DNA from: Lachnospiraceae bacterium
Lineage (GTDB): Bacteria; Bacillota; Clostridia; Lachnospirales; Lachnospiraceae
Reading direction: 5' to 3'
DNA length: 64,000 nucleotides
NCBI GenBank assembly: GCA_017520425.1
Contig: JAFXFO010000009.1
Span: forward strand, 1-64,000
Part shown: one piece after another, positions 2,556-41,980 of the stretch
How the letters are laid out: each line of letters opens with the position of its first letter
Position numbering within the stretch: the first letter of the stretch is position 1
The notes under the pieces: model-generated
Databases searched by the model: none
Told to the model about the DNA's origin: nothing
Seen by the model: only the letters and a program-made list of their open reading frames with translations
Translations under genes and position numbers: made by a program

Positions 2556-2568
2556 GGGAGGTTAAGTT

Positions 2569-3948: not shown

Positions 3949-3955
3949 ATTATGT

Positions 3956-3988: not shown

Positions 3989-3994
3989 TGCTTT

Positions 3995-4165: not shown

Positions 4166-4192
4166 GATTAAATTCCTTTCCAATTGTTTTAT

Positions 4193-7100
4193 TTATTGTT
4201 TCTCAGATATATCTTTTATACTTTCATTCGGTTCATAAAAGCTTTGAAGCTTACATAAATGGGCATAGCGTTTCTGGGCGTCCTCTTCTGCTTTGGCAAA
4301 AAGCTCCTTGGCATCCTCGGGTCGCATGAGTTCTAAAGCTGTGTAACGGGTTTCGCCTGCCAGGAAGCTGTCAAAATCCAGATGGGGGGCTTTACTGTCC
4401 AGCTGGAAGGGATTCTGTCCCGCTTCCCGCAGTGAGGGATTGAAGCGAAACAGATGCCAGTAACCGGTTTCCACAGCCTTTGCCTCCTCATGCTGGGAGC
4501 TTCCCATACCTGCTTTTACTCCATGACTGATACAGGGAGAGTAAGCAATAATCAGGGAAGGGCCGGGATAATGTTCTGCTTCCCAAAGGGCCTTTAAGGT
4601 CTGGTTGAAGTCTGCGCCCATGGCCACCTGTGCCACATATACATCCTGGTAGGTCATAGCCATGGCAGCCAGGTCTTTTTTTCGTGTGGCTTTACCGCCG
4701 GAGGCAAACTTGGCAGTGGAGCCGGTGGGTGTAGCCTTGGATGCCTGACCGCCGGTATTGGAGTATACTTCCGTATCAAAGATCAGAATATTAATATTTT
4801 CCCCGCTGGCCAGTACATGATCCAAACCGCCGAAACCGATATCGTAGGCAAAGCCATCCCCACCGAATACCCAATGGGACTTTTTCGCCAGATAATCCTT
4901 GTAGGTCAGAAGCTCTGTCAGTGTGGGCAGGAAAGACTGAAGGGTATTGGAATCCTTTCCAACTGCTGACAATGGTTTAGCTTCTGCAGAAGGCTGTATT
5001 ACCTGTGCCGGGGCAATGGTATCCGGCTGTTTCTTTGTCTCAGCAGGGCTTTCCAGATGTCTGGGAGTAGCACCCTTGCTACCACCTCGCTCTCCCTTCT
5101 GAAGAAGCTCCCGGATGATAGCGACCAGTCGGTTAGCAGCACCGGTATTTAAGTCTCCGTCTTCAAAAGTATCCAACCATTCACCGCAGGCATCAGTCAG
5201 TTCCTTATAGTCTTTTTGTCCGGTAGTTCCCTTTTCCAGTTGTACGACTAACTCCTTTAATCTGCCGCGCAGAGCCTTCTGGGTCAGTAGCATACCATAA
5301 CCGAATTCTGCACCGTCCTCAAAGAGGGAATTGGACCAGGCAGGACCACAGCCGGCTTTGTTTACCGTGTAGGCAGTGGAAGGGGAGGAATTAGCCCAAA
5401 TGGAGGAGCAACCGGTGGCGTTACCGATATACATACGCTCGCCGAAAAGCTGGGTTACCAGGATGGCATAGGGTGTTTCCCCACAGCCGGCACAGGCGCC
5501 GTGGAATTCCAGCAGGGGCTGGCAGAACTGGCTGCCCTTTACAGTGTTTTTCTTGAATTTCTCCAAAAGCTCCGGCTTTACCGGCAAGGATTTGCCATAA
5601 TCAAAGTACTCCTGGTGCTCCTCCATTTCATGGATGGGGCACATTTCCAGTGCCTTCCTACCCTGCTTGCCGGGGCAAACGCCTGCACAGGAGCCGCAGC
5701 CGGTACAATCCACCTTGGATACGGTGATGCCGAAGAAATAATCCGGCATACCGGTAAGGGGCAAAAGCTGCATGCCCTTTGGAGCGTTTTCTGCCTCTTC
5801 CTTTGTCAGTACGGCGGGACGGATAACAGCATGTGGGCAGACATAGGAGCAACGGTTACATTGAATACAGTTTTCCGGAAGCCAGCGGGGTACCTCTGTG
5901 GCCACATTGCGCCTTTCGTGGGCAGAGGTACCGGGCGGAAAGGCGCCGTCTGCATAGGGCAGAAAGGCGGATACAGGCAGGTCGTTACCCTCCTGACGGG
6001 TGATTTTCTTCTGCAGATTCACCACATAATCTGTGATATCTGAGTGATCCGGTAGTACCTGTGCATCAAAGGGTTCTTCTCCTGTCAAAGTAGCCCATTT
6101 TTCAGGAATCTCTACTTCCATCACATCTGAAATCCCTCGGTCAATGGCGGCAAAGTTCATGGCCACAATCTTTTCGCCCTTCTTGCGATAGCTGTTTTCG
6201 GCGGCCTCCTTCATCAGGGTGGCGGCTTCTTCTATCGGTAGTATGGCTGTCACACGGAAAAAGGCAGCCTGCAAAATGGTGCTGGTTTTATTATTCAGAC
6301 CGATTTCCTTGCCGATACGGATGGCATCAATGATATACAGCTTGATATGATGCTCTGCCAGATAACGTTTTACCTGAGGGGGCAAAGCCTCCTCCAAATC
6401 CTCTTCCTTCCAGTAGCAGTTCAGCAAAAAGGTGCCCCCATCCTTGATATCCTGCACCATATTGTACTTGTGCAGGTAAACAGGGTTGTGGCAGGCCACG
6501 AAGTCGGCCTTTTGCACTAGGTAAGGGGCATGAATGGGACTGTCACCGAAACGCAGATGGGAGACCGTAAGTCCCCGGGACTTCTTGGAGTCATAATCAT
6601 AATATGCCTGCACGTATTTGTCTGTGTGATTTCCGATAATTTTAATGGAGTTTTTGTTGGCACTGATGGTGCCGTCGCCCCCAAGTCCCCAGAATTTACA
6701 GTTGTAGATATCCGCAGGTAAAGGGTCTATATGCTCTTTCACATCTAAGGAGAGGTGGGTCACATCATCCCTGATACCTATGGTGAAAACCGGCTTTTCT
6801 GCATTACTTAACACCGCCAGAATTTGAGAAGGTGTAGTATCTTTGGAGCTTAAACCATAGCGGCCGGAATACACAGGAAGCCCCGCAAAGGAGCTTCCCT
6901 TCAAAGCTGCTACCACATCCAGATACAGGGGCTCGCCCATAGCGCCGGGTTCCTTTGTGCGGTCCAGCACGGTGATGCGCTCTACCGTAGGTGGCAGGCA
7001 GGAAAGCAGGTGGGCAGCACTGAAGGGACGATACAAATGCACCTTGATTACGCCGGTTTTCGCACCTTGTCGATTTACATAATCCACGGTTTCTTCGATG

Positions 7101-7945
7101 GTTTCACATACGGAGCCCATGGCGATTATTACGTGGGTGGCATCGGGCACACCATGGTAGTTGAAGAGTCCGTAGGAAGTGCCCAGCCGATTATTGATTT
7201 GTACCATGTAATTTTCAACAATGGCAGGCAGGTTGTCATAGTAGATATTGCAGGCCTCACGGTTTTGGAAAAAGATGTCCGGATTTTGGGCAGATCCCAT
7301 CATCTTCATGTGGGAGGGATGAAGGGAGCGTTCCCGAAAGGCTTGGAGAGCTTCCCGGTCCATAAGCTGTCCTAAATCAGCATAATCCCAAACTTCAATC
7401 TTTTGCTGTTCATGGGAGGTTCGAAAGCCGTCAAAGAAGTGAAGAAAAGGCACACGCCCCTTGATTGCCGCTAAATGAGCCACAGGGGATAAATCCATAA
7501 CCTCCTGCACACTACCGGTAGCCAGCATAGCCACGCCGGTCTGGCGGCAGGCATAGATGTCCGAATGGTCGCCGAATATGGAGAGGGCGTGGGTGGCAAT
7601 GGTACGTGCAGCCACATGAAAGACACCGGGCAGCAGCTCTCCCGCTACCCGGTAAAGATTTGGTATCATTAACAAAAGTCCCTGAGAAGCCGTAAACGTA
7701 GTGGACAGGGCACCGGTAATCAGGGAGCCGTGCATGGCCCCTGCGGCACCGGCTTCCGACTGCATCTGGGAAACCTGTACCGGGTGTCCGAATATGTTTT
7801 TGCGGCCTTCCAAAGACCATTCATCTGTGTATTCTGCCATGGTGGAGGAAGGAGTGATGGGATAAATCGCAGCCACCTCCGTGTAGGCATAAGCCACATG
7901 GGCAGCAGCCTGGTTGCCGTCCATGGTTTTTTGAATTCGCTTCAT
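4193..7945 (-). CDS. nifJ: Pyruvate:ferredoxin (flavodoxin) oxidoreductase
   Basis: This 1250-residue homodimeric-type enzyme oxidises pyruvate to acetyl-CoA and CO2 and passes electrons to ferredoxin. In order: the N-terminal TPP/pyruvate domain (AAIYPITPSSTMAE), the GDHSD segment, the FWGLGGDGT domain, two ferredoxin-like clusters (CIQCNRCSYVCP near residue 693, CTGCGSCAGVCPG near 745), the proximal cluster region GACAGCGET near 815, and the TPP-Mg site (GGDGFAYDIG near 1027, DTEVYSNTGGQ near 1055). ATG 7945 follows AGGAGG at good spacing. The usual family length is about 1170-1190; the excess lies mainly in a low-complexity Ala/Pro/Lys stretch around residues 905-1000 just before the TPP site. 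It is followed by rubredoxin and preceded 47 bp upstream by the LytTR-type regulator. Confidence 0.96.
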   Translation of the reverse strand: MKRIQKTMDGNQAAAHVAYAYTEVAAIYPITPSSTMAEYTDEWSLEGRKNIFGHPVQVSQMQSEAGAAGAMHGSLITGALSTTFTASQGLLLMIPNLYRVAGELLPGVFHVAARTIATHALSIFGDHSDIYACRQTGVAMLATGSVQEVMDLSPVAHLAAIKGRVPFLHFFDGFRTSHEQQKIEVWDYADLGQLMDREALQAFRERSLHPSHMKMMGSAQNPDIFFQNREACNIYYDNLPAIVENYMVQINNRLGTSYGLFNYHGVPDATHVIIAMGSVCETIEETVDYVNRQGAKTGVIKVHLYRPFSAAHLLSCLPPTVERITVLDRTKEPGAMGEPLYLDVVAALKGSSFAGLPVYSGRYGLSSKDTTPSQILAVLSNAEKPVFTIGIRDDVTHLSLDVKEHIDPLPADIYNCKFWGLGGDGTISANKNSIKIIGNHTDKYVQAYYDYDSKKSRGLTVSHLRFGDSPIHAPYLVQKADFVACHNPVYLHKYNMVQDIKDGGTFLLNCYWKEEDLEEALPPQVKRYLAEHHIKLYIIDAIRIGKEIGLNNKTSTILQAAFFRVTAILPIEEAATLMKEAAENSYRKKGEKIVAMNFAAIDRGISDVMEVEIPEKWATLTGEEPFDAQVLPDHSDITDYVVNLQKKITRQEGNDLPVSAFLPYADGAFPPGTSAHERRNVATEVPRWLPENCIQCNRCSYVCPHAVIRPAVLTKEEAENAPKGMQLLPLTGMPDYFFGITVSKVDCTGCGSCAGVCPGKQGRKALEMCPIHEMEEHQEYFDYGKSLPVKPELLEKFKKNTVKGSQFCQPLLEFHGACAGCGETPYAILVTQLFGERMYIGNATGCSSIWANSSPSTAYTVNKAGCGPAWSNSLFEDGAEFGYGMLLTQKALRGRLKELVVQLEKGTTGQKDYKELTDACGEWLDTFEDGDLNTGAANRLVAIIRELLQKGERGGSKGATPRHLESPAETKKQPDTIAPAQVIQPSAEAKPLSAVGKDSNTLQSFLPTLTELLTYKDYLAKKSHWVFGGDGFAYDIGFGGLDHVLASGENINILIFDTEVYSNTGGQASKATPTGSTAKFASGGKATRKKDLAAMAMTYQDVYVAQVAMGADFNQTLKALWEAEHYPGPSLIIAYSPCISHGVKAGMGSSQHEEAKAVETGYWHLFRFNPSLREAGQNPFQLDSKAPHLDFDSFLAGETRYTALELMRPEDAKELFAKAEEDAQKRYAHLCKLQSFYEPNESIKDISEKQ

Positions 7946-9967: not shown

Positions 9968-10041
9968 GGATGATAATATTTAGAATGGTATAAATATTGC
10001 CTGTTTATAAAGTATTCTGCTCGAGAAAGGGAGAAAAACAA

Positions 10042-13000
10042 ATGAAGAAGAATCGTAGGATTATGACGTATCTGGCATACCTTACCATGGTGGCAGTTTT
10101 GCTTGCAAATATGCCGCTGGGAGTGTCTGCAAGCGTAATGCTTCCGGATGATACTATAGAGTATATCAAGGGGACGGCAGACGATACATCCAAGGATGCA
10201 GCTGAGAAGGATATGAATACCTATTCTATCAACTATGATCCCAATGAAGGTGTCATTACCTACGGTACAGTGGGAAAAGTAGGTGCATGTGAGGAAAATG
10301 ACACCAACAATGAAGTGTACAGGGGAAGTAAGTTTAAAAAATTTCCTTCTGATTATGAGAATTTAACCAATGCTGACGGTACGCTTATGTTCCCCGGTTG
10401 CACGCAGCCCGGATATGATTATACGGCTATGTTGACTTATGCCATTGATACGGAGGCCAACAATAACGCTGCCGGCAGGGACTCTTATGAAATTCGTATA
10501 GAGGAAGGTGTATATTATTTTGCAGGAGCCCTGAAGGTTTGGGGACAGTTTAGTTTAAACGGTGTATACGGCAAGACGGTATTTGTCTGTGAGAAGAATG
10601 CAGAGGGAACCCTGTTTAAGGCAGCTACAAGCAATACCTATTATTCTGGTGTCAGCATTACGGATATTACCTTTGTGGCAAGGGGTGCTCATGATAGCTT
10701 TGAACCGACAAAGTCCGCTGCGGAAATCCATGGAAAGACATTGGATATGAGAATCGACCCGGTAGAAGATTATAACTGTTTCCAGGGCATGAACATCTCC
10801 TGGTCTACCATTAAGAATTGTACGATTTCCGGTTTCGCGGCACCTTTGTCCGGTGTAAAGGGGCATATGTGTTCCCGTATTCAGAAAAATACCTTTGGTC
10901 CCTGTATTGTGGCACTACATGGTTTACATTTTATAGATTGCTTTATTTATGACAATTACTTCATGGGCACAGCCATTCTTCGGGATACCAATCCCAAGGA
11001 AGGTGTGGATAAGCATATGGATTTGCCTTTGTTTACCACCGGTATCGGCCCAAATCTGACCACCATTAACAACAATTATATTAAGAACTTTTTCTATGGG
11101 AAGGGAGAGTCCGATACTTACGGCGTAGCTTATACCAATAATACCTATGACCATGTTTACGGTATTGAGTTTTTTACGGCAGGAGATTCCACAAATCCGG
11201 TTTCTCAATGTTTATTTAAGAACAATACCTATAAGGATATTGCGGCATTCTTTGAAGGATTGGGCTATACACCCTACACCTCTGAAAACACAGGGGAAAA
11301 TGCTTATGTGATTCACGCTCTTTCCTATGACCACAATGATAATATCAGCGGAAAATCCTTTAATAAAGTGCAAGCGGATAACAAGGCTTATATTATTGAT
11401 TTGGCCGGTGGTACTACGATTACCCAGTGTAAATTTGAAGAAACGGATATGGCAGATACGGAGCTGTTCCGTTTCGGATATACGAGCAATGCTGTAAGAG
11501 ATAAAGGCAGTACAGGGACTCAGATTTTGGATAATGCTTATGAGATTGACTCTTATCAGAAGGATGATATTTTCAGAGATAATATCAATCTAAAAAATAA
11601 TGGCTTGAAAGCAGAGTGGGATACCAAGTATTTCCTTTCCAGGAAAACTTCCAAGGAAGCGTGCATCTACTACAGCCCGGATGGTTGCATTAAGATTGAT
11701 ATGTCCTGCTTCTTTGATCCGGACAACAACGAGACATTGGGCTATAAGGCTTTATCAAATAAGGTGGGCGCGGATGAAGCGACCCTTAACAATACGGTAG
11801 CACAGCAATATTACAAGGATATTAAGGCAGGCAAAAATATAGTGTACCTGTCTGATTTTGGTGCCACTGCAGACGATGGTGTCAGCGACAGTATGAATAT
11901 TCAAAAGGCTTTTGATACAATCGCGGAAACAGGGGATATTTTGGTAGTAGAGGGAACCTATAATATAACCACCCCTATTTTGCTACGTGGCGGAAAAACC
12001 TATCGTGTAGTAGGTAATGGCGGAAAGGAAAGCCAGAACAAAGAGCAAGTGGCAGGTGGCTTCTGTCTGAATGTACAGGATGCTACATTGGTGAAGACCG
12101 GAGCTTTCGTACAGGATAAGGATGATACCGGCAAAGTAAGCGGTTATTTTTGGAACATTAATATGAACCCCAATAATATCGGTCAGGGTCTTAAGTGCAT
12201 AGAACGTACAGGTACAGCCTTTTATCAGGTACGTTTTGATAAAATGCTTTTTACGGACTATCGCATGGGCTATATGGAAACGGTTTTTGAGGAATGTACC
12301 TTTACCGATTCCATTATCCAGGGCGGATATAGCCAATATAATCCTTCCGGTTTGATGAAGAGATGTATTTTTGAGTCTTCTGTTTTGAGACATACCTATT
12401 ACACAGGAAGCTTGTGTGATTACGGTATCGGATATACCTATGCCTATTTCTTAAAAGATACGGATTTTGTACAGTCCACCATGCGAGGGAACTGGGTAGA
12501 ATTTGCCCAGATGAGTAATGGTTTCCGCTTTAACGGGGATGGTAATTCCCTCTATACCGGCAATATATGGGACTATGTGTGGAATTTCCAGTTTGGACGG
12601 AATGACATATTCACAGGCAATAATCTGACGCATAATGCTACCACTAGTGTAACCAATCATCTGGCTGGTCCGGATAACGTAGCCCGTGACAAGTGGACCT
12701 CGGAAATCAGTGCAGGCAATATTACCTCCATGCATGTATCCGATGGTGTCAAAATCGTAGGTAATGTATTCAGTGACGGCAGCAGTCAGTATACCACATA
12801 TTTTAACTTTGACGGACGTACCACCGTTTATAGCAATGGCGGAAAGCCGGCCACCTCTATTTCCAATGCAAGAATTGCCGGTAATCTGACCGGAGGTGCG
12901 GCAAATGCCAAGGAAATGGTTCAAGTGCTTTGTTCCGATACCTTAGTGAAAGAGAATTGCCGGAATAATCAGATTGATTTAACCTCCATGGCGAAAAGCA

Positions 13001-15273
13001 AGAAGTATATCCCGGATACACAAGCCTATGCCTACAGCCCTGCGAACTACAAAGAAGCTATGATTCCCGGCACGATTGCCTGGCTGTGGGGAAGTGAAGA
13101 TTCGGCACTGTATTATTATGGGGAAGAAGGAACACCCAAGGCTTTACAGGCACAGCCTCGTAAAACATTGGATTTTGATTTGAGTTATAAACTGGAAAAT
13201 ACCGGTGGAGACCAAAACAATGGATTGACCGTTTATGAATACGATTTTGTAAACAATGACAAGCTGGTGATTACGGATGAAACCGGTAATAAGACGGAAG
13301 AAGCAGGGGATATTGTTACTTCCTATAAGGACAGGGCTGCTTTTGTTTCACCATTTAATGAAACCTATATGGAACCGGTGGTTACTTTGATTCCGGGTGA
13401 AGAAAGTCCGGCTTCACAGTTGAGGAAAGTATTGTATTCCGAATCCGTTTATTTGAACAGTGAACCCAATGCCAATAAGGGATTAAGCACCCTTCCCCCG
13501 GTTTATCTGTTTGCGGATGAGGAACTGGTAAATAGGTATATTACTTTTACGGCAGACTTTACCGCACCACTGGGAACGAATCCTGTGGGAGATTATCCGG
13601 CCATTATTTACGGTGAGGATGATAATTATTATTACGGCGTGATACCGGGCTTGCAGAACAGCTATGCATTACGTAAGCGCAGCTTTAAGATAGAAAAGAG
13701 TGAAAATGGTAAGATTCATGGTACCAACAATAATAACGGAGGTGTATTGCCCTGTGATAAGGGAACAATGAATAAAGCAACCTCCACAGATGTCTCTGCA
13801 GCAGGTGCAGGCAAGTCCGGAAATAATGTAAACGGTAATGTTTATTTTGATGGATTGGACGAAGAAGCCACCAAGGATAACACCGGCATAGTGAATTATG
13901 ACCCTACGAATTTAAATACCCCTGTGATGGGCATGAAAGTGGAATGTAAATACGGTTACACCCAGAATGCCGTAGAAATATTTGTAGTATTTGATTTTGG
14001 TGATTCTTATGTGCCGAAGGATACTGCGAAGAAGCTGACAGAGAGGAAGATTTCTCTGGGAACCTTTTCCATTGAAAATATGAATACTTTACCCGGTATC
14101 ATGTTCTTTACGGATGCGTGGATTGAGAATGTTTCCTATGCCATCGACGAGGATTTTGACCGTGATGAAATAACAGAGATTCATCCGGGAGAGGACGAGG
14201 AAGAAACCTGTACCCATCCCTTTACGGAATATATCCGTGTGAAGCCTACCTGTACCACAGATGGCTATGATTCCTATATTTGCAGTAATTGTAAAGTGAC
14301 CCTGTCTTATGTGGAATTAAAGGCGGCGCATGACTTTACGGAAGAGATTATAGCACCTACTTATGAGGCTCAGGGATACACCTTATGTACCTGTGAGGTA
14401 TGCGGACATACGGAAAAGAAGGATTATACAGACAAATTGGTGCCTACACCTACGCCTACCGCAGTACCCACGGCAACATCCACGGTAGCACCTACAGCAA
14501 CACCCGCAGTAGTACCTACGGCAACACCCACGGTAGCGCCTACGGCAACGCCAACGGTAGCACCTACAGCAACACCCACGATTGCGCCTACGGCAACGCC
14601 CACAGCGACTCCGACAGCAGAGCCGGTGCCCACCCCTACATTGGAACCTACCCCTACTCCGAAGCCGGATAATATCATAAGCGGTATTGTAACGAATACA
14701 ACCTACTATGTGGACGATACCATCAGCTTCACGGCTATCGGCGATGATATGAATATTACACCTACAGAAAATGCACTTCGCTATGTACCCGTGAGCTGGA
14801 AGGTAAATCCTCACGGAAGCTGGGAGAACGCACCTTATACGGCAAGCTTTCGCATTGCTTCAGCAGGTGACTATACCCTGTATGTAACGTATATGGAGCA
14901 GGAATATTGGAACGGAAAGTGGAATAATACAGGCAGAACCGATGTGGCAAGTGTGGCATTTACCGTGATGGACAAGCCGGCAGAACCTACAGCTGAGCCC
15001 ACGGCGACACCTACGGCAGAACCGGAAGCAACTGCTTCCCCTGCGCCTACCGTAGCACCCACTTCAGCGCCTACAGCGGCTCCAACCATGGCGCCGCCTC
15101 AGGTAACAGCAGTACCTACAGCCGCACCGGAAATCGAAACCATTCCCACATATCCTATTGATAAGAGTCCTCAAACGGGACAGGAGGATATGATGTTATT
15201 ATGGTGCGGTATGGCTCTTATAGCGGCCGGAAGTTTAGCCGGATATGTATTTGTGAGAAGAAAACGCAGATAG
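10042..15273 (+). CDS. Giant cell-wall-anchored beta-helix surface protein 1 (1743 aa)
   Basis: A signal peptide (residues 1-31, ending LGVSA) is followed by long Asn/Gly/Tyr-rich beta-helix regions. One, near residues 600-650 (FGATADDGVSDSMNIQKAF, GTYNITTPILLRGG), matches the start of pectate-lyase-3-type right-handed beta helices. A lectin-like domain follows, then a CxxC module with PTCTTDGYDSYIC and CEVCGH (about 1389-1463), a Pro/Thr/Ala linker (1467-1543), an Ig-like domain (1546-1643), a second linker, and SPQTG with a membrane helix and RRKRR tail. SPxTG-type signals are used by class B-like sortases of clostridia. ATG 10042 has an AAAGGGAG site. The likely role is adhesion to, or attack on, glycans at the cell surface; catalytic residues are not identified. 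Confidence 0.85.
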   Translation: MKKNRRIMTYLAYLTMVAVLLANMPLGVSASVMLPDDTIEYIKGTADDTSKDAAEKDMNTYSINYDPNEGVITYGTVGKVGACEENDTNNEVYRGSKFKKFPSDYENLTNADGTLMFPGCTQPGYDYTAMLTYAIDTEANNNAAGRDSYEIRIEEGVYYFAGALKVWGQFSLNGVYGKTVFVCEKNAEGTLFKAATSNTYYSGVSITDITFVARGAHDSFEPTKSAAEIHGKTLDMRIDPVEDYNCFQGMNISWSTIKNCTISGFAAPLSGVKGHMCSRIQKNTFGPCIVALHGLHFIDCFIYDNYFMGTAILRDTNPKEGVDKHMDLPLFTTGIGPNLTTINNNYIKNFFYGKGESDTYGVAYTNNTYDHVYGIEFFTAGDSTNPVSQCLFKNNTYKDIAAFFEGLGYTPYTSENTGENAYVIHALSYDHNDNISGKSFNKVQADNKAYIIDLAGGTTITQCKFEETDMADTELFRFGYTSNAVRDKGSTGTQILDNAYEIDSYQKDDIFRDNINLKNNGLKAEWDTKYFLSRKTSKEACIYYSPDGCIKIDMSCFFDPDNNETLGYKALSNKVGADEATLNNTVAQQYYKDIKAGKNIVYLSDFGATADDGVSDSMNIQKAFDTIAETGDILVVEGTYNITTPILLRGGKTYRVVGNGGKESQNKEQVAGGFCLNVQDATLVKTGAFVQDKDDTGKVSGYFWNINMNPNNIGQGLKCIERTGTAFYQVRFDKMLFTDYRMGYMETVFEECTFTDSIIQGGYSQYNPSGLMKRCIFESSVLRHTYYTGSLCDYGIGYTYAYFLKDTDFVQSTMRGNWVEFAQMSNGFRFNGDGNSLYTGNIWDYVWNFQFGRNDIFTGNNLTHNATTSVTNHLAGPDNVARDKWTSEISAGNITSMHVSDGVKIVGNVFSDGSSQYTTYFNFDGRTTVYSNGGKPATSISNARIAGNLTGGAANAKEMVQVLCSDTLVKENCRNNQIDLTSMAKSKKYIPDTQAYAYSPANYKEAMIPGTIAWLWGSEDSALYYYGEEGTPKALQAQPRKTLDFDLSYKLENTGGDQNNGLTVYEYDFVNNDKLVITDETGNKTEEAGDIVTSYKDRAAFVSPFNETYMEPVVTLIPGEESPASQLRKVLYSESVYLNSEPNANKGLSTLPPVYLFADEELVNRYITFTADFTAPLGTNPVGDYPAIIYGEDDNYYYGVIPGLQNSYALRKRSFKIEKSENGKIHGTNNNNGGVLPCDKGTMNKATSTDVSAAGAGKSGNNVNGNVYFDGLDEEATKDNTGIVNYDPTNLNTPVMGMKVECKYGYTQNAVEIFVVFDFGDSYVPKDTAKKLTERKISLGTFSIENMNTLPGIMFFTDAWIENVSYAIDEDFDRDEITEIHPGEDEEETCTHPFTEYIRVKPTCTTDGYDSYICSNCKVTLSYVELKAAHDFTEEIIAPTYEAQGYTLCTCEVCGHTEKKDYTDKLVPTPTPTAVPTATSTVAPTATPAVVPTATPTVAPTATPTVAPTATPTIAPTATPTATPTAEPVPTPTLEPTPTPKPDNIISGIVTNTTYYVDDTISFTAIGDDMNITPTENALRYVPVSWKVNPHGSWENAPYTASFRIASAGDYTLYVTYMEQEYWNGKWNNTGRTDVASVAFTVMDKPAEPTAEPTATPTAEPEATASPAPTVAPTSAPTAAPTMAPPQVTAVPTAAPEIETIPTYPIDKSPQTGQEDMMLLWCGMALIAAGSLAGYVFVRRKRR
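14443..14670 (+). repeat. Pro-Thr-Ala coding tandem repeat
   Basis: An in-gene tandem array with a period of roughly 24 bases encodes repeated PTVAPTAT-type units linking the CxxC module to the Ig-like domain of surface protein 1. Such arrays change length easily by slippage. Long open frames on both strands through this stretch are artefacts of the repeat. Confidence 0.85.
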
Positions 15274-15300: not shown

Positions 15301-18300
15301 ATGAAAAGAACGAAAGCATTATTCAGAGGATTGAGCTTCATCATGATGTTGTGCTTACTTCTGCAGATGATTCCTATGGAAGCATTTGCAGTGGCACCGG
15401 ATGCTGACCAGATTCAGTCCGCACCCTTTCCCGTTAATTATGATCCCAATGACGGAATGATTCACTATGGTCATTCAGGTGAGGTGGGATTCAGACCGGA
15501 GAATGATACCAATAACATCTATGAAGCAGATGATAAGGTGATTTATTTCCCGGATGATGTGATTAACGAAAGGGACGAAAACGGAAATCCTTTATTCCCC
15601 GACTATAATCCCGGCAATGCCTATTATGATTATACGGACATGTTCAATCGGGCCATGGCAAAGTCCAAAGAGCAGGGAAATGCAGAGATTTTTGTAAATC
15701 CGGGTGTGTTTTATTTTACAGGTTCTGTGTATTTAAATAGTGGAACCAGTATTAATGCAGAAGCCGGAAAAACAGCATTTGTTATTAAGCCAAACTATCA
15801 GGATAAGGACGGAAATCCGGTAGATGTTACCGGTTTCTTTACCAACCCTAATTTGAATGAAACCTATGCATGGTATCAGGGAGGAATCGGCGATCTTATT
15901 TTCGTTGTGGAAGGTACTCATGATGCCTTTAAACCTACCAGTTCGGTACAGACCATTATGGATAATCTCTGTAGTGATCAGGTGAACGCAGTAAAGGATT
16001 TTTCATTATTCTATCGCATTCGTATGAAATATAGTGGCATAGATAATATTGCGCTCAGTGGATTTCATGCATTTATGCGCTGGACCTTTACAGATATGCT
16101 GACCCGTGTAACCAGTGTTACGGTAGGACCTACCAGATTGGTTTACCATGGTGTCCAGACCAACGATGCATTTTTCTATGATTGTTATTACTACGGTGGA
16201 TATTTTACAGAGGATGACTTACATGAAATCCCTGTTTTCCAGATAAATTTCAGTATGGGTACCACGGTATTCGCCAATTCTTACCTTGGGAATTACTATT
16301 TTTCCCATAGTGGTGCAGGATGTTGGTGTCCTCATACCACCTATTCGAATCTGACACTGGAGAGAGTTTGTAATTTTGTTATAGATACTACAACAGTTTC
16401 CTCTTCTGTCAGCGGATGCTTGTTTAAAGATGGTGCATACAACGATATTAAGAAATATTTTGAGTCCCAGGGGTTAACGCCTTATGACCATGCTACCAGA
16501 TACTATGACCATACTGCGAAGAAATGGGTATATCCCGGTACCGGTTATGTGATTCGTGACAATATAGTGGGTGACAATGCCTACGACAGAAAGCACAGTG
16601 CCAACCACTGGGACGGACAGATGCTGACTATGATTCAGTTACATAGTGGTATTGCCTTTACCCAGAACAAGATTCAGTGTGATTCTTTGGATTGGACGAC
16701 TTTGGTGCGATTGACGGATTCGGAGTGGTCTTCCAGATATGATGCCCGTAGAAATGCAACCAACTTGCAGTTTTCGGACAATGCCTTTGAAATCCGTGAG
16801 TGGGATTATGGGAACCTGATGGTGGATGACTGGAGAGGTGGCAAACCCTATACGGAAGGCTGGCATGACAATACCATCATCGTATGGGGAGAAAGAGGCT
16901 GGAAAAATGATGATGGCACACCTGCCATGGGCTGGGTCGGCGCAGAGGGACCGGAACCCGTGTGCTGGCTGAAGGATGGCGTTTATGTTTCCACAGAACT
17001 GGAAAGATATATTGATTTGTCCGCTTTCTTAGACAAGAATAAGCCTACGGCAGGTTATGCTGCATTGGGTGCAGTAGGTGCTGATGAGCAGGGACTTTGG
17101 GATGCAGGCCTGGAAGATCAGTATTATAAGGATTTGCATTCCGGCAACTATGAAATCTTATCTTTTGTAGATGATTTTGGCGGTTTTAATTGGAATACCA
17201 GCAGTAATCATGAGAAGCTTCAGGAAGCCTTTGACTATGTGGCGACTCATGATGATGCGATTCTGTATATTGAAAGCGGTACATATCGTACGGATAAGCC
17301 CATTGTACTTCGTGGCGGTGCAACCTATCGGGTAGTCTTTAATGGTGAAATCAGAGCCAATAAGACTACGGATATGGATGGTGCGGGTATCTTTGTTATG
17401 AGCGGAGATGATAATGAACCGATTAAGGGTTATTTCATTGAAGCTAATTTGTACATGCAGGATACCAATTCCAGTGGTTTCTATAATGTGAATTTTGATG
17501 ATTTTTATATGAAGGTACATAGTATTGCCCGTGGTGTAGGTGCATTTACCAACTGTAAGCTTACGGATACCATCCTTCATGAAGGTCAGATTCAGTATAA
17601 TGATTACGGATTTTTCTATAAAACCGTTACCAACAATACTTTGGTAAAGAATGTTTACGGTACATCCAGTACCGGTGTGGAAGGTGCAGACGGATATACA
17701 CCCGGTGATATCAACTATAAGTATTTCATATCATCCTCTGATTTCACCAAATCCACCTGGAGAGGCTGTTGGCTGGAGTTCGGCCAGTTCTCCAACGGTA
17801 AGACCTTAACCGGTGCAGGTAATAGTGTATATCGCGGTAATATTATTGACTATACCTATAACTACAGCTTCGGTAAGAATGACGTGGTTTGCGGAAATAC
17901 CATGACCAGAGCGAATTACGGTTCCATCGTGAATCATATGGAGAATTCTAATTTCCCCATTGATAAGCCGGATGTTTTGAAAGACAAGCCTATGATTATG
18001 TTCCATGTGAGCGATGGCTTGCGACTGATTGGTAACACGGATTTAGGAGCTATGAATCCTCAGACACATTTCATTGAGTTTGACAGTCCGGGTATCAGCT
18101 ACAAGGATGCAAATGGGAATATCGTGAAATCCATTTCTAACGTACGTATTGCCGGTAATGTGGTATATACGATAACAGGGGGTGAATACAAGCAGAATAT
18201 ACCGGTGATGCCCTTTGATAAAGCGGATAATGTGGTATTTGAAAACTGTAAGAACAACCAGATTCTCCTTCACCACTGGTACCTGAGAGATCAGGTAGAC

Positions 18301-20643
18301 GACCCGGAAACAGAGGAAGCAGAGATTCCCTATACCATTACGAAGGATGAGGTAATCAGCTGGTCCATCCCCGGTGTAAAGACCTATGTGAACAAGGAGT
18401 ATCTGGAGGTAAAAGAGCCGACCACACCTGCTAAGAATTTAGAACAGGTAGTAACACCTCAACCGGCACAGGATGAAATCTTTGATGTGCCGAATAAGTG
18501 GGAGGGTGAAGGCGCATATACGGAGTATGAGCTGTTTGATTTTAAGAACAGAACACCGGAAGAAGCACAGGCCTTGGCGGAAAAAATGGCCGGTTATATT
18601 GATAATTCTACTATTGTGGCTTACAGGAATTCCGGTTACAACAAGGTGGTTGTTGATGGAGAGGAAATGCCTTTGGCCTATTATGACGGAAGTGATGTGA
18701 AGGGCATTAAGAACCTTTCACCTGAGGAACGTCGAGCTATCCTGCAGCAGATTGTTCAATATGCTGTGAAGGAAAGTCCGAGTGGAAATAACGCATTTTT
18801 GATGGATGGTTCCAGAGCAAAAACGGATGACACCGGAGGCGGAAATGATAATGTGGAGAATAAGCCCACTTATGCTATTATATTTAGGGACGAGGAGTTA
18901 TCAGGTAACAGTTTACAGAGTGTAAACACCAGCTTCTATTATGACTTTGAGTTATCTTATGCATGGTTGGGCAAGAGACCGCTGTTTATTATTCTGTCTG
19001 AGGATGCAGAAAAGTATTATGGCATCCTGTTAGGTTATACCAGCGGAGATTATGGTATCTATACTGCAGTTTCAAGTTATGAGAAAGATTTCTTTAATCG
19101 TTATGTTGATGAACAGTATAAGTTTGCGGACTACGGACAAACAGGTCTTTCTAACGTAAAGAATGATATCAGTCGCTTGAGTCATATAGATACTTTTAGC
19201 GGAATTACGCGCCCGGCACATGGCGAACAGGGTAGAACAGTATTTGGTGACTACACAGAGATTCCCATGTTTGAGGGAAATGTATACAATTATGACTCAG
19301 TGGTATTGGGTGTGGATCTGACCTGCGAATACAATGATGACTACGGCAGTGTATCCGTTTATGCAACCTTTGATTTTTCCAATATAGGTAAGGATGAATC
19401 ACAGACACCGGCATTACAGGCTTCTACCAGAAAGGTGTGGATTGGTACCTTCCCTATTCAGGGCAATAACAAGATTTTTGGTCTTTGGAACGGTGATAAG
19501 ACATGGTTGGAAAGTGTACAGTTTGAGTATGTACCCGAAACACCGGCTACATGTGATCATGTTTATACAGATGAAATTACCAGGGAAACCACCTGTACGA
19601 AGGATGGTGTAGTCAGACATACCTGTACCAAGTGTGGTTATGATTACGAAGAGCCGGATAAGGCGTTAGGACATGTCTTCTGGGATAAAGTATTATCAGA
19701 TGGCAGAACGCAGCGTACCTGTACTGTCTGCGAATTGTCATTTATCACTACAGAGGAGCCCAAGTATGAGTGCAGTCACAGATATACGAAGACGATCATA
19801 ACTGAGGAAACCTGTACTACGGACGGTATCATTAATTACATCTGTAGTATCTGTGAAGACAGCTATACGGAAACCGTTCCGGCACCCGGACATGAATACA
19901 CATCAACTGTAGTTCCCCCGACTGTGGAAGCAGAAGGATATACAGAGTACTTCTGTACCGAGTGTGGGGATACCTATAAGGGTGATTATGTGCCTAAGGT
20001 AGAGGTGCAGCCTACTCCTACACCCACGGCAGCACCTACAGCAACGCCCACACCTGATGCAGGTCGCAATATGATTGAAGGTATTGTAGCAGGAGGAATC
20101 TACTATGTGGGTGATACCATCAGCTTCACTGCAATCGGAGATGGTATGAATATTACTGCTACGAATCAGGTATTTCGTTATGCACCTGTGAGCTGGAAGG
20201 TAAATCCCAGCGGGACTTGGGAGAGTGCCCCTTATACGGCAAGCTTTACCATCAGTACGGCGGGTGATTATACCTTGAAGGTAACCTTTGCGGAACAGGA
20301 GTACGAAAACGGAACTTGGAATAATACAGGTAGAACATCTGAGACAAGCGTAGATTTTGTAGTGAAGGAAAGACAGACAGAGCCCACAGCAACACCGACA
20401 GCAGAACCTACAGCGGAACCTACAACCGCTCCGACTCAAGCACCTACTGCGGCACCTACATCTGCTCCTACGGCAGCTCCTGTAGTGACAGCAGTACCGG
20501 AAAGCACAACCATTCCCACATATCCTATTGATAAGAGTCCTCAAACGGGACGGGAAGATATGATGTTGGTATTGTGCGGATGCATTATGTGCCTTATGAG
20601 TGGCCTTGCTCTGGTGATGAGTAATAAGAAAAAGAAAAAGTAA
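15301..20643 (+). CDS. Giant cell-wall-anchored beta-helix surface protein 2 (1780 aa)
   Basis: This is a paralog of the preceding gene, 27 bp downstream with a CGGAGG site, so the two form an operon. It has the same architecture: signal peptide (MKRTKALFRGLSFIMMLC...), NYDPNDGMIHYG, two beta-helix regions (the second near residues 620-670 with SGTYRTDKPIVLRGG), a lectin-like beta domain, a longer set of CxxC modules (CTKCGYDY, CTVCELSF, CSICEDSY, CTECGDTY), a short Pro/Thr linker, an Ig-like domain, another linker, SPQTG, a membrane helix and a KKKKK tail. It carries more CxxC units but a shorter linker than protein 1. Probably sortase-anchored on the cell wall; ligand unknown. Confidence 0.85.
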   Translation: MKRTKALFRGLSFIMMLCLLLQMIPMEAFAVAPDADQIQSAPFPVNYDPNDGMIHYGHSGEVGFRPENDTNNIYEADDKVIYFPDDVINERDENGNPLFPDYNPGNAYYDYTDMFNRAMAKSKEQGNAEIFVNPGVFYFTGSVYLNSGTSINAEAGKTAFVIKPNYQDKDGNPVDVTGFFTNPNLNETYAWYQGGIGDLIFVVEGTHDAFKPTSSVQTIMDNLCSDQVNAVKDFSLFYRIRMKYSGIDNIALSGFHAFMRWTFTDMLTRVTSVTVGPTRLVYHGVQTNDAFFYDCYYYGGYFTEDDLHEIPVFQINFSMGTTVFANSYLGNYYFSHSGAGCWCPHTTYSNLTLERVCNFVIDTTTVSSSVSGCLFKDGAYNDIKKYFESQGLTPYDHATRYYDHTAKKWVYPGTGYVIRDNIVGDNAYDRKHSANHWDGQMLTMIQLHSGIAFTQNKIQCDSLDWTTLVRLTDSEWSSRYDARRNATNLQFSDNAFEIREWDYGNLMVDDWRGGKPYTEGWHDNTIIVWGERGWKNDDGTPAMGWVGAEGPEPVCWLKDGVYVSTELERYIDLSAFLDKNKPTAGYAALGAVGADEQGLWDAGLEDQYYKDLHSGNYEILSFVDDFGGFNWNTSSNHEKLQEAFDYVATHDDAILYIESGTYRTDKPIVLRGGATYRVVFNGEIRANKTTDMDGAGIFVMSGDDNEPIKGYFIEANLYMQDTNSSGFYNVNFDDFYMKVHSIARGVGAFTNCKLTDTILHEGQIQYNDYGFFYKTVTNNTLVKNVYGTSSTGVEGADGYTPGDINYKYFISSSDFTKSTWRGCWLEFGQFSNGKTLTGAGNSVYRGNIIDYTYNYSFGKNDVVCGNTMTRANYGSIVNHMENSNFPIDKPDVLKDKPMIMFHVSDGLRLIGNTDLGAMNPQTHFIEFDSPGISYKDANGNIVKSISNVRIAGNVVYTITGGEYKQNIPVMPFDKADNVVFENCKNNQILLHHWYLRDQVDDPETEEAEIPYTITKDEVISWSIPGVKTYVNKEYLEVKEPTTPAKNLEQVVTPQPAQDEIFDVPNKWEGEGAYTEYELFDFKNRTPEEAQALAEKMAGYIDNSTIVAYRNSGYNKVVVDGEEMPLAYYDGSDVKGIKNLSPEERRAILQQIVQYAVKESPSGNNAFLMDGSRAKTDDTGGGNDNVENKPTYAIIFRDEELSGNSLQSVNTSFYYDFELSYAWLGKRPLFIILSEDAEKYYGILLGYTSGDYGIYTAVSSYEKDFFNRYVDEQYKFADYGQTGLSNVKNDISRLSHIDTFSGITRPAHGEQGRTVFGDYTEIPMFEGNVYNYDSVVLGVDLTCEYNDDYGSVSVYATFDFSNIGKDESQTPALQASTRKVWIGTFPIQGNNKIFGLWNGDKTWLESVQFEYVPETPATCDHVYTDEITRETTCTKDGVVRHTCTKCGYDYEEPDKALGHVFWDKVLSDGRTQRTCTVCELSFITTEEPKYECSHRYTKTIITEETCTTDGIINYICSICEDSYTETVPAPGHEYTSTVVPPTVEAEGYTEYFCTECGDTYKGDYVPKVEVQPTPTPTAAPTATPTPDAGRNMIEGIVAGGIYYVGDTISFTAIGDGMNITATNQVFRYAPVSWKVNPSGTWESAPYTASFTISTAGDYTLKVTFAEQEYENGTWNNTGRTSETSVDFVVKERQTEPTATPTAEPTAEPTTAPTQAPTAAPTSAPTAAPVVTAVPESTTIPTYPIDKSPQTGREDMMLVLCGCIMCLMSGLALVMSNKKKKK
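20509..20551 (+). repeat. 43-bp exact repeat shared by the sorting signals of the two surface genes
   Basis: This stretch, which encodes IPTYPIDKSPQTG, is identical over 43 bases to 15139-15181 in the first surface gene although most of the two genes has diverged. It suggests gene conversion or strong constraint around the sortase motif. Confidence 0.85.
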
Positions 20644-38694: not shown

Positions 38695-38778
38695 TTACTT
38701 TTTGGCTACGATAGTAAATTCACCCGGAACTTCAGGGTTCTCCCATGCTTTTTTGTTTTGTACACTATAATCTCTCAT
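38695..38778 (-). pseudogene. Internal-deletion scar of a SAM-methyltransferase gene (27 codons)
   Basis: A 27-codon frame overlaps the end of the AraC gene. Its first half (MRDYSVQNKKAWE) resembles the N-terminus, and its second half (AWENPEVPGEFTIVAKK) the C-terminus, of a clostridial class I methyltransferase family that starts M-DY--QN--AWEY and ends W-N--LPGEFTIVA-K. The two halves share the word AWE, which suggests that recombination at a short homology removed roughly 230 codons. The similarity is from memory of the family and needs a search. Confidence 0.5.
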
Positions 38779-39754
38779 GTTTCCCCAACCACTTTTCTAC
38801 CATTTTGTAATATTCCGTATCTTTCTCTGCATTATTGTAGTAAAATTCCAGAGATTGTACGGGAACCACAAGATGGTCAATCTGTACCATGTCTGTATTT
38901 TTGTACAGAAACTCATCCGTATCATCGCCGGGACAATTGCCATAAAACATGCACCTTACTTTTATACCCTGATAGTTAATATCAAAATACTTAAATTCAT
39001 CAGTTGTTTGTTTCGCGGCATCCGGGTAGCGGAAAAATGATTTAACGATTTCTTCATCCTTCCATTTAAAGGTCAGGCAAATCTTGTCCAAGGGAAATTC
39101 CAGACCATGGGCAAAAATCATAGTTTTGCCGTCAACCTTGAAGGGTATTTGGTTTTGAACCAGGCTACCTGCCAAAGAATGGAGTATGCTCCATTCATGC
39201 TTGTACTGCATCGTACCAATATCAATTTGATAAGTAGTGTTTGTTGGTTCCATATGGTTTCCTCCTATATTGTTTATAGGAGTATTATAAGCAGTATTTT
39301 GGGTTTGTTCCTGTCCTGTATCATTTGATTTTGTCAGGTTTCCGGTATTCCAGCCGCCTTGAATAGTGACTGCAATTTCCATAGGCGCAAATGACTTGGA
39401 AACAGGAAATCCGCGTCTGATAAAGCTGGGCGGAAATCCGTGGAATCTGGAAAATGCCTTGGTAAAGGCTTCGGGAGTTTCGTAACCGTATTTGTAGGCC
39501 ATTTCGATGATTGGTGTATTTGAAGTTGTCAATTCTTCTGCGGCCATAGTTAACCTTCTGTTTCGGATATACTCCATAATGGTCATTTCACAAACCACCT
39601 TGAAAAGAGAAGATAAGGTTGACTCACTGATGAAAAAATGCGAGGCAATGGAGGTTGGTGTCAACTCGTCGAAAAGATTCTCTTCGATGTGGTCTATTAC
39701 CCGGTGTAACATGGAAAGGGAAAAAACATTTGTATTCTCGAAATCAGATGCCAT
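38765..39754 (-). CDS. AraC-family regulator with effector-binding domain
   Basis: This 329-residue protein has the AraC double helix-turn-helix at its N-terminus (VIDHIEENLFDELTPTSIASHF FISESTLSSLFK split at residue 32; MAYKYGYETPEAFTKAFSRFHGFPPS, to residue 108). A long beta-rich domain of the GyrI/effector-binding kind follows (IEIGT-like TYQIDIGTMQYKHEWSI; FKYFDINYQGIKVRCMFYG). It probably senses a small molecule. Its ATG lies one base after the stop codon of the reverse transcriptase, and its ribosome binding site AAGGAGG lies inside that gene's last codons, so the two are translationally coupled. Confidence 0.85.
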   Translation of the reverse strand: MASDFENTNVFSLSMLHRVIDHIEENLFDELTPTSIASHFFISESTLSSLFKVVCEMTIMEYIRNRRLTMAAEELTTSNTPIIEMAYKYGYETPEAFTKAFSRFHGFPPSFIRRGFPVSKSFAPMEIAVTIQGGWNTGNLTKSNDTGQEQTQNTAYNTPINNIGGNHMEPTNTTYQIDIGTMQYKHEWSILHSLAGSLVQNQIPFKVDGKTMIFAHGLEFPLDKICLTFKWKDEEIVKSFFRYPDAAKQTTDEFKYFDINYQGIKVRCMFYGNCPGDDTDEFLYKNTDMVQIDHLVVPVQSLEFYYNNAEKDTEYYKMVEKWLGKHERL

Positions 39755-39755
39755 G

Positions 39756-40988
39756 TTATTCCTCCTTGGGATTTGTAGCTTTGAATTGTTTATAGTATTC
39801 GTGCACCAGACTGCGATATCCCCACTCTTTCATTTGTTTGTAGGTAATGCGGTAATTGCCCTTGTAATGGCGGCCTGTGACACAGTAGCGGATATACTGT
39901 TGCATGTAAGTATCGATTTCTTTCAGGCCTTCGTCGGTGGTCAGACAGGGGAAAAACCAGCGGCTCCAGGAGAATTCGGTGCCCTCTCCATTGTCGTAGA
40001 ACTTGCGGTTCATGGCTTTGATGAAGCCCTTTGCAGCCCGGTCTCCGGATAAATCTTTCTTTTGCTGCCAGCGTCGCAGTGCGTGAGCTTTTCGCTTAAT
40101 CTTATCTTTCATCTTTCGGATGGTAACATCGGACAAATCCACCTTGTAATCATGAAATGAAAAACCTAAGAAGTCAAAAGGCTCACCGGGTTTGCTCAAG
40201 TGTACTTTGGAAGGATTTATAGCCAGTTTGTGTGTTTCAATATATTTATAGAGACGAGTTTGTAATCCGGCCAATTCATCTTCCGTATCCGCGAATATCA
40301 GAATATCATCGGAATAGCGGAAGTACACAATCCCTTCCTGCTCAAAGAGATGGTCCATTTCCATCAGGTACACGTTGGCCAGGAAGGGTGAAATAGGAGT
40401 GCCGGCCATGGCCCCACGCTTTTCCGTAAAGATTTGTGTATTCCCATTCTATTCATAAATGGCTTGGTCAGTAGTCAGAAGATGAAAAAGAAAATCATAA
40501 ACGGCAGAATCTTCTGACTTTAAGAACGCAAGCTTACTAAGAAGAAGAGGCACATCTATGGAATTGAAATAGTTGCTGATATCCACCTTTAAGCAGTACT
40601 TTTGGTGGATGTTATCGGTATGCCGAAGGCGACGTACCGCATCCTTTACCCCATAATGTCTGCGAAAAGCATAGCAATTACGGGCAAATAAGTGATCGTA
40701 ACGGAAAAGAAGGTAGGTCAGCATCTTTAGGAGCAAATTAAAATCTCCTTGGAAGGAATAGACCACTCTTTTCTTGGATACGCCGCTTTTATTGACTTCC
40801 TTTTTGAAGGGGAGTGGCAAAGCAGAACCACACTCAGAGATGCAGGCAAGAATCGGAAGATACCTTTTTTCGACAATGTATTCTTCCAGTTCTTTTTGCT
40901 CTCTGGTTGATAAGTGTTGTTTTTCAATTTTATAGTCTAAAAATTCCTGCCAGTATTCGGGACAGGAAAGCTGTTCTTGGATGGTCAT
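39756..40988 (-). pseudogene. Reverse transcriptase with one in-frame TAG
   Basis: A 411-codon reading frame encodes a complete RT fold. In order: an N-terminal region, motif A VDISNYFNSID near residue 135, an in-frame TAG at codon 180 (40451-40449), motif B GAMAGTPISPFLANVYL just after it, motif C RYSDDILIF near 224, motif D INPSKVHL and the LGFSF segment, then a thumb-like helical C-terminus. The frame is otherwise intact on both sides, so this is either a very recent nonsense mutation or readthrough. There is no maturase or endonuclease domain, and no retron NAxxH motif is seen, so it is neither a group II intron protein nor an obvious retron. The start at 40988 has GAGGAG at seven bases; an upstream ATG at 41024 lacks spacing. 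Confidence 0.8.
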
Positions 40989-41032
40989 GGGTGGTCTCCT
41001 CTTGTAGCCCTGCTTTAGAGCCATTCCTTAAG

Positions 41033-41185
41033 TTTTGCTTCAGAGCATACATTCGCAAAACCGCCTCTTCGAGGCTTTTCTTTTGCTCATGCATGGCTAC
41101 TCGCCATATAATTTCCCCAAAACAGGCTTTACCAAGCCAGCTTGGAACGCCTGCTTATTGGGAAATTGCATGGCTCTGAAGCAAA
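41033..41185 (-). ncRNA. Closed multi-hairpin structure immediately upstream of the reverse transcriptase
   Basis: The ends pair perfectly over 13 bases (plus strand TTTGCTTCAGAGC 41034-41046 with GCTCTGAAGCAAA 41173-41185). Inside lie three hairpins: GCAAAA..GCCTC-TTC-GAGGC..TTTTGC (41055-41086), ATGGC-GAGTA-GCCAT (minus strand, 41093-41107), and a stacked stem AATTTCCC/GGGAAATT with CAGGC/GCCTG and CCAAG/CTTGG (41110-41167). This looks like a folded RNA read toward the reverse transcriptase, as in retron or DRT-type systems. Short open frames in it (24 and 54 codons) lack ribosome binding sites. Confidence 0.5.
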
Positions 41186-41190
41186 GCAAA

Positions 41191-41340
41191 AAAAGAAAGA
41201 GAAATTACTTTGAAGCAACTAAAGCGTGCTTAGTTGTACCAGACTGAACATATCCCTACTACCTGCAAAGCACCATAACGGATATGGGAATGCTTCATCT
41301 GTCACAGGTGTAACAATAGCGTCACATTTCTCTTTCTTTT
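41191..41340 (-). ncRNA. Second closed RNA-like structure upstream of the reverse transcriptase
   Basis: A perfect 15-bp inverted repeat (plus strand AAAAGAAAGAGAAAT 41191-41205 and its complement 41326-41340) encloses exactly 120 bases. On the minus strand these contain TGTTAC/GTGACA, AAGCA-CCATA/TATGG-TGCTT and AACTAAGC/GCTTTAGTT hairpins. It adjoins the first structure with five bases between. The layout resembles the flanking repeats of msr-msd or DRT-type non-coding RNA. A 46-codon minus-strand frame (41359-41219) runs through it without a ribosome binding site. Confidence 0.5.
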
Positions 41341-41389: not shown

Positions 41390-41980
41390 TTAGCTAATGG
41401 CCTTGCGGATTCTTTCTTCCATATAGTCCAATTCGTTGGGCATATACTCGAAGAAGTCCATCATAGGAGTACTGTTTTGGTCACAGTAATCCTTGATTTT
41501 ACGGTTTGCCATATGTGTATATTCCTGATAAGAATCATAGACATTGATAAACAATACTCTTTGGCCATTCTTATAAATCGCATAGGAGATATCCTTGGGA
41601 AGACGATAGCAACCGCCACGTTTGTAAAGCTCGTAGCCTGCCTCTGCTTCAATGGAATCCGCAGAAATGTTTTCCTGTATCTCAAACTCGCCGATTTTAT
41701 TTAATACATCAGGAAGCTTCTGTGCAAAAGGTCTGTCATCGTAGGAATCGTTTGAGCTTTTGGCAACGGTGGTTGACGTATGGGTGGTGGAAGCAGCCGT
41801 ATTGGAAGAAGGCACATTCACAGACTTGCGAATCGCATCATCTGTCTTACTCATTCCGCCACGTAATCCCTTGTCTACAGTAGTATGTACATTGTCGTAT
41901 ACAGCATCGTTTACCGCTCTGTTCATAGCACGTTCTGCTGCCTTTAAGCCGGTTTTTAATAAATTATCTAAAAATCCCAT
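41390..41980 (-). CDS. Hypothetical protein (196 aa)
   Basis: ATG 41980 follows GGGAGG at five bases. The N-terminal half (MGFLDNLLKTGLKAAERAMNRA, VHTTVDKGLRGG, a Ser/Thr-rich linker) is amphipathic and flexible. The C-terminal half from about residue 95 (FEIQENISADSIEAEAGYELYKRGG, GQRVLFINVYDSY) looks like a compact alpha/beta domain. No known family is recognised. It lies on the same strand upstream of the two RNA-like structures, but 50 bp of unstructured sequence and its stop separate it from them; whether it belongs to the reverse transcriptase locus is unclear. Confidence 0.6.
   Translation of the reverse strand: MGFLDNLLKTGLKAAERAMNRAVNDAVYDNVHTTVDKGLRGGMSKTDDAIRKSVNVPSSNTAASTTHTSTTVAKSSNDSYDDRPFAQKLPDVLNKIGEFEIQENISADSIEAEAGYELYKRGGCYRLPKDISYAIYKNGQRVLFINVYDSYQEYTHMANRKIKDYCDQNSTPMMDFFEYMPNELDYMEERIRKAIS

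Follow-up and report, generated by a model that had tools for sequence, protein, structure and literature searches.

A UG26 reverse transcriptase of the Lachnospiraceae, its RT-5 RNA and an upstream partner protein as a probable DRT-like three-part system

A 64,000-nucleotide stretch of DNA from a gut Lachnospiraceae bacterium (GCA_017520425.1, contig JAFXFO010000009.1, positions 1 to 64,000; referred to throughout as the window) carries on its minus strand a reverse transcriptase (RT) gene which was found to be accompanied by an RT-5 non-coding RNA (ncRNA) and by a gene for a small partner protein (Table 1). The class of this RT is UG26, and the locus probably constitutes a three-part system that resembles the class 2 DRTs, composed of the partner, the RT-5 RNA, which would be bound by the RT and serve as its likely template, and the RT. 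Comparison between genomes showed that these three parts travel together, and by analogy with studied systems the set looks like a DNA-making anti-phage system. The original prediction for this DNA had proposed an undescribed or rare RT-ncRNA system; the joining of the parts into one unit does appear to be new, but the parts had already been named in Rfam and PADLOC, and the protein partner had been overlooked. No link of RT-5 to UG26 or to RTasCOG2852 was found in the available portions of the literature covered, with Weinberg 2017 and Mestre 2022 lying outside that coverage.

Table 1. Features of the UG26 locus and their positions in the window.
Feature	Position	Strand	Remarks
UG26 reverse transcriptase	39756..40988	-	PADLOC RT_UG26 E=1.7e-163; YSDD and motif A Asp intact; 410 residues including TAG codon
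In-frame TAG inside RT	40449..40451	-	gap in 64/72 aligned proteins at that stretch
Clostridiales-1-like dispersed repeat between ncRNA and RT, outside the system	41034..41185	-	RF01699, 36.3 bits
RT-5 ncRNA, extended, about 150 nt	41186..41340	-	Rfam RF03026 at 41201-41313; model R1 at 41186-41339
P1 closing stem, 3' strand, then T run	41191..41205	-	T run common in UG26 loci
Single-stranded P5-P1 segment (CTTCAAAGTAA), putative template	41205..41215	-	position as for the DRT10 template in PMC12632851
P5 hairpin	41216..41236	-	both-side changes in 9/9 pairs; pairing in 87.7% of cells
P3 long hairpin, variable bulge	41241..41300	-	both-side changes in 12/14 lower pairs and 4/4 apical pairs
Pseudoknot 3' strand CAGGT, in P3 loop	41261..41265	-	pairs with 41305..41309
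Pseudoknot 5' strand ACCTG	41305..41309	-	pairs with 41261-41265
P2 hairpin	41309..41326	-	both-side changes in 6/6 pairs; pairing in 94.3% of cells
P1 closing stem, 5' strand	41326..41340	-	pairs with 41191-41205; 15 bp, perfect
Partner protein, 196 aa (MGFLDNLL...)	41393..41980	-	profile family in 59/72 loci; AlphaFold2 model

Fold and conservation of the RT-5 RNA

The structure lying upstream of the RT on the same strand was recognised by Rfam model RF03026 (RT-5) with 52.8 bits against a gathering score of 45.7, and the name RT-5 implies nearness to a reverse transcriptase gene. At the Rfam cut-off RT-5 was found in 10 of 61 genomes in a sample of relatives, all 10 of which were UG26-positive. 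Eight of the 10 aligned hits, with the stems P1 and P2 added, were made into an extended model, R1; the hits from G011 and G018 were left out because MAFFT misaligned both at P1. The window sequence scored 131.7 bits with R1, a match by construction, as this sequence belongs to the seed. Matches to R1 were obtained upstream of the RT in 67 of 74 UG26 sources with E ≤ 2e-8, or in 59 of 66 when the eight seeds were set aside. Seven of the 74 gave no good match: L032 and L146 are contig edges, an explanation that does not extend to L108, L166, L173, L174 and L175, and the match in L166 was weak (E 0.95) yet located just upstream of the RT. Weak R1 matches on the opposite strand at the same places (best E 0.006) arise because the stems are near-palindromic.

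Covariation of the predicted pairs was assessed in two alignments. In the RT-5 alignment behind R1, which had not been fitted to the structure, 29 of 50 pairs were double-changed, compared with 12.0 ± 2.5 after shuffling and at most 12 when the structure was slid along the columns. The alignment of 67 sequences, which was fitted to the helices and not to the pseudoknot, the latter being absent from R1, contained 94.1% pairing cells as against 71.4% in shuffled and at most 50.0% in slid controls, and 48 of its 50 pairs changed on both sides (36.1 ± 1.9 shuffled). All 13 modelled pairs of P1 changed on both sides somewhere among the 67 sequences. A complement to the 5' strand of the pseudoknot was located in the loop region over 4 bp in 66 of the 67 sequences and over 5 bp in 61; in the pseudoknot columns all four counted pairs changed on both sides and 100% of the cells with letters paired. 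Comparative analysis thereby showed RT-5 to have a conserved fold with a pseudoknot, in which the two ends of the RNA pair to form the closing stem; the stem covariation and conservation upstream of homologous RTs that had been named as a check on the original prediction were both found for this RNA.

The fold extends the published family. The Rfam match covers neither the closing stem P1 nor the 5' strand of P2, and the covarying pseudoknot joins stretches that are unpaired in the printed consensus line of RF03026. All three additions, P1, P2 and the pseudoknot, are results of the present analysis and appear to be new. Over the 321-nt stretch which contains RT-5 together with the structure adjoining its 3' end, the folding energy was -123.1 kcal/mol, compared with -85.2 ± 5.0 for shuffled sequences (z -7.5), and none of 100 shuffles was as low.

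The partner protein and the association of the three parts

Open reading frames upstream of the RT were clustered, giving two groups (35 and 18 loci) which were merged by profile into a single family present in 59 of 72 UG26 loci. A start of the MGFLD type is usual in this family. The profile, A6, matched the window protein (G000:C1:41393-41980) at 1.9e-43, this protein being itself a row of A6. The 13 loci without a partner were L108, L146, L149, L150, L156, L159, L160, L164, L165, L166, L173, L174 and L175, of which L146 and L156 are contig edges. The PADLOC model RTasCOG2852 (PDLC03793) matched 36 of the 56 aligned members at E ≤ 0.1 (best 2.5e-63), so a connection with RTs was already known for some of these proteins; the same model gave no hits to the window partner or to 19 other members, and it is the broader profile that unites the matching with the non-matching proteins. 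No SLATT domain was found in the 56 members among the 25 Pfam families listed out of 27 and five PADLOC families at E ≤ 0.1. The partners of L147 and L161 were longer (293 and 371 aa) with extra N-terminal parts, and cysteine pairs in that of L147 look zinc-binding.

In the AlphaFold2 model of the window partner residues 1-80 were of low confidence, and a C-terminal domain (residues 81-195) was mostly modelled with pLDDT above 90. A fold search returned nothing significant (best E 0.11), with unrelated proteins following the best seven matches; six of these seven we take from their names, for example TnsA and VRR_NUC, to be PD-(D/E)xK nucleases. Positions conserved in 50% or more of the 59 members did not display the usual (D/E)xK motif.

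The distribution of UG26 was patchy. At E ≤ 1e-60 it was detected in 36 of the 138 genus genomes, in 37 of 397 genomes of a family sample, spread over 36 of 334 genera, and in two of 398 genomes of a phylum sample, both from the same family; such patchy spread is usual for defence genes. Within the genus, R1 matched in 29 of the 36 UG26-positive genomes and in none of the 102 UG26-negative ones, and the partner was found in 34 of 36 and in two of 102 (G075 and G115), respectively. The counts for UG26-positive genomes include sequences used in building the models (eight genomes for R1, most for A6), and it is the near absence of ncRNA and partner from UG26-negative genomes that is the independent part of the co-occurrence evidence. 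Five genomes in which R1 was missed genome-wide (G070, G103, G128, G147 and G155) had the RNA at the locus itself (L107, L106, L138, L116 and L109, respectively), the misses being due to the stricter filters of the whole-genome search. G024 and G027 were the UG26-positive genus genomes still lacking an R1 match, the latter because its contig starts inside the RT.

Searches of mobile elements yielded four distant UG26 relatives on viral contigs, none with an R1 match, and no UG26 in phage or plasmid records at 1e-20. Two diverged relatives were observed elsewhere. In L173 (3385-7200) a protein of 1271 aa carries Radical_SAM_N2 and Radical_SAM domains followed by a UG26-like RT (5.8e-107 to UG26), with no RT-5 RNA found by R1 and no partner found by profile. 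A similar RT in L174 (5980-7197 within 1352-7197) stands beside two large open reading frames that look like ABC exporters by translation, one of them possibly with a peptidase domain. These two loci may belong to a side lineage with a different role, perhaps in the neighbourhood of genes for peptide export.

The usual gene order was partner, ncRNA, RT, and in 63 of 66 loci a distance of 2-245 nt separated the end of the ncRNA from the RT match that follows it. Such proximity, together with a T run near the 3' end of the RNA in 50 of 66 loci (8.5% of random places) and the position of the ncRNA directly before the RT start codon in L112 and L120, would also suit a cis-acting leader, a terminator or attenuator that controls transcription or translation of the RT and is not a template. 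We consider this rather unlikely: in L154 the order is ncRNA, partner, RT, so that the partner gene comes between, and in L127 a distance of 2.2 kb separates the RNA from the RT; a covarying pseudoknot and five helices are more than a terminator needs; and functional, RT-bound ncRNAs are described for DRT2, DRT9 and DRT10 in PMC12039810, PMC12483538 and PMC12632851. The altered order in L154 indicates that the parts stay together through rearrangement.

Other features of the neighbourhood were recorded. A promoter-like site precedes the partner gene (42043-42015), and such sites were not in excess (4 compared with 3.5 in shuffles). A gene for an AraC-type regulator (38765-39754, minus strand) starts directly after the RT stop, and no family of the AraC type could be recognised in the 18 largest clusters of genes neighbouring UG26 RTs. 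Further away, two giant adjacent open reading frames (9997-15273 and 15301-20643, plus strand) encode 1758 and 1780 aa; in a Pfam search the first had no match and the second only a PT disordered repeat under the cut-off.

The reverse transcriptase and the adjoining repeat

The window RT matched PADLOC RT_UG26 (PDLC03764) over residues 13-414, nearly the full profile, and scored 542 bits compared with 117 bits for the next model. After UG26 and a general RT model, the PADLOC ranking continued with UG27, UG4, UG17 and Drt9. The class of the RT had originally been left open, and is open no longer since the RT is UG26. The gene is better started from the ATG at 40988, which coincides with the beginning of the UG26 profile and is preceded by an AGGAGA-like ribosome site. 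An RT of about 410 codons with no maturase or nuclease domain had been anticipated, in agreement with the 410 residues (TAG included) and with RVT_1 as the only Pfam match. D148 of motif A and the YSDD motif, both present in the window RT, are at least 95% conserved in 72 aligned UG26 proteins; tyrosines are frequent at the C terminus in the same alignment, with Y395 in 97%. An AlphaFold2 model of an intact relative, the RT of L112 (pLDDT 91.7), had the GsI-IIC intron RT as its best fold match, followed by DRT9.

All nine NCBIfam models listed for group II, retron, DRT and AbiA proteins fell under their own cut-offs. A retron-like arrangement, in which a single round of copying would turn a portion of the RNA into a fixed msDNA and this would hold a toxic partner in check, might be suspected from an RNA, an RT and a small effector-like protein adjoining on one strand and from the retron RTs among the weaker matches. 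It is, however, quite improbable for a UG26 RT whose best retron model (St85) reached 67.2 of 235 bits, with the other retron models lower, and whose translation lacks the retron motif NAxxH, as had been noticed from the start.

The window copy differs from other UG26 RTs in that its reading frame is broken by one internal TAG. L176, which is in two pieces, was set aside from the 73 loci, and in the translated tblastn spans of the other 72 the window copy was the only one with a stop inside the RT, the stop flagged in L126 lying before the RT start. In the genome search G335:C12, G394 and G492 were each flagged with one stop, which by its coordinates falls within the last codons, beyond the part matched by tblastn, and the RTs of G018 and G401 were split as by frameshifts or gaps. 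A family-wide recoding site at this TAG was considered and rejected, since one of 72 loci has a stop inside the RT.

Two perfect stems had been predicted to close a tandem pair of RNA structures in front of the RT, and both were confirmed, with 13 bp (41034-41046/41173-41185) and 15 bp (41191-41205/41326-41340). An RT-associated upstream RNA was strongly borne out for the 5' structure, which is RT-5, and not for the 3' one. The 3' structure, closed by the 13-bp stem, matched the whole of Rfam model RF01699 (Clostridiales-1) under its gathering score of 48. A DNA search of its own genome at E ≤ 0.01 placed this segment at 15 sites besides its own (16 matches in total), with eight of the 15 matching over at least 130 nt, and Clostridiales-1 matches (E ≤ 0.001) occurred in 47 of 101 genus genomes sampled, with at least 25 in each of two genomes. 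At L112 and L120, with RT identities of 81% and 67%, the ncRNA runs straight into the RT start and the repeat is absent from the junction. Owing to the copies in its own genome, the multicopy occurrence across the genus and this absence, the 3' structure was identified as a dispersed repeat; the two structures differ in kind and are not two copies of one thing.

The tandem pair is therefore not one system, and a tandem ncRNA pair as one unit was rejected. That the two structures form a single bipartite ncRNA, as their adjacency and stability could indicate, is very improbable, given the 15 further matches to the second segment in the same genome, its resemblance to a family with many copies per genome and its absence at the L112 and L120 junction. 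When 25 UG26 gaps of at least 60 nt were compared by blastn with a set of 30 Clostridiales-1 slices, a few of them with incorrect boundaries, the gap of the window was the only one to give a match (28 nt). Clostridiales-1 RNA (RF01699) was observed as multicopy, dispersed and sometimes tandem in G006, G098, G112 and others (loci L036-L065), and is more like a mobile repeat than an ncRNA of a single gene. Other palindromic, repeat-like sequences, read by eye, occupy the gap between ncRNA and RT in L115 and L124 (193 and 116 nt). With a Clostridiales-1-like repeat between ncRNA and RT and a TAG within the RT, the window copy of the UG26 system may be impaired.

That the locus is a group II intron in decay, or the RT of such an intron standing alone, as the closest solved fold (GsI-IIC) might suggest, is hardly credible in a window with no intron RNA at the Rfam threshold, no Pfam maturase domain in the RT, a score of 120.9 of the 300 bits needed for the group II RT/maturase model TIGR04416, and a conserved non-intron RNA with a partner protein; the placement among group II introns with intron domains, against which the original prediction was to be judged, was accordingly not found.

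Proposed mechanism and comparison with known systems

By analogy with studied class 2 DRT systems, the RT-5 ncRNA would bind the RT and provide it with a short template, which probably lies in the unpaired stretch from P5 to P1. The RT would prime on itself, perhaps on a conserved C-terminal tyrosine, and would make repetitive single-stranded DNA. The partner, which would combine a flexible arm at its N terminus with a degenerate nuclease-like fold, may act as effector or regulator once a phage disturbs the complex.

According to PMC12632851, UG17 is DRT10, a system of a UG17 RT, a SLATT protein and an ncRNA located upstream of the SLATT gene; it makes ncRNA-templated repeats, and its template lies downstream of a stem-loop. 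The class 2 labels given in PMC12632851 and PMC13174585 are UG17, UG28, DRT2 and DRT3a. The UG26 locus resembles DRT10 in its three parts, in an ncRNA near the RT and in a folded RNA whose stem-loop is followed by a single-stranded segment. It differs in the RT group, in a partner that is not SLATT and in the usual order partner, ncRNA, RT. Two further reports describe functional RT-bound ncRNAs that neighbour the RT in DRT2 (PMC12039810) and lie immediately upstream of it in DRT9 (PMC12483538). With DRT9 the UG26 system shares the position of the ncRNA, and DRT9 came second to GsI-IIC in the fold search; unlike DRT9, it has no universal poly-U in the single-stranded consensus before the 3' end and it has an additional protein.

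The candidate template segment after P5 is a conserved single-stranded UU(C/U)AA(A). An A-B-A' repeat of at least 2 nt was present in 57 of 58 distinct tails, a pattern which fits in form. The A-A' match was nevertheless not in excess over permuted tails (mean 3.431 vs 3.429 ± 0.098, 58 distinct of 67 tails), by an anchoring rule that misplaced at least two tails (L142 and L150) and made some wrong stem picks, for example in L144, L160 and L168. The 20 tails with UUUAA gave a weak difference (3.50 vs 3.22 permuted, p 0.06), and inspection by hand of the bases before the T runs revealed no clear A-B-A' excess. In lacking statistical support for A-B-A' the UG26 system differs from DRT10, and a telomerase-like A-B-A' template is kept as a possibility. 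Tentatively, and with more doubt than confidence, UG26 could be read as an undescribed defence RT for which RT-5 would template telomerase-like tandem-repeat DNA from the P5-P1 segment, in units of about 8-12 nt, with an effector of catalytically degenerate nuclease fold that would read the DNA or the complex.

In the literature covered no function was found for UG26, which is listed in a paper on prokaryotes. If the telomerase-like reading of the RT-5 template were true, it would be the first function for the orphan RT-5 RNA class. The UG26 RT, the RT-5 RNA and the RTasCOG2852-type protein, until now catalogued separately, are here joined in a single unit that can be tested, in which the ends of the RNA are exactly placed and a pseudoknot and a candidate for the template are given. 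Since the RTs of this broad kind studied so far yield DNA products that are odd and unlike one another, a further group with a defined RNA would be directly useful for questions of how and why such DNA is made.
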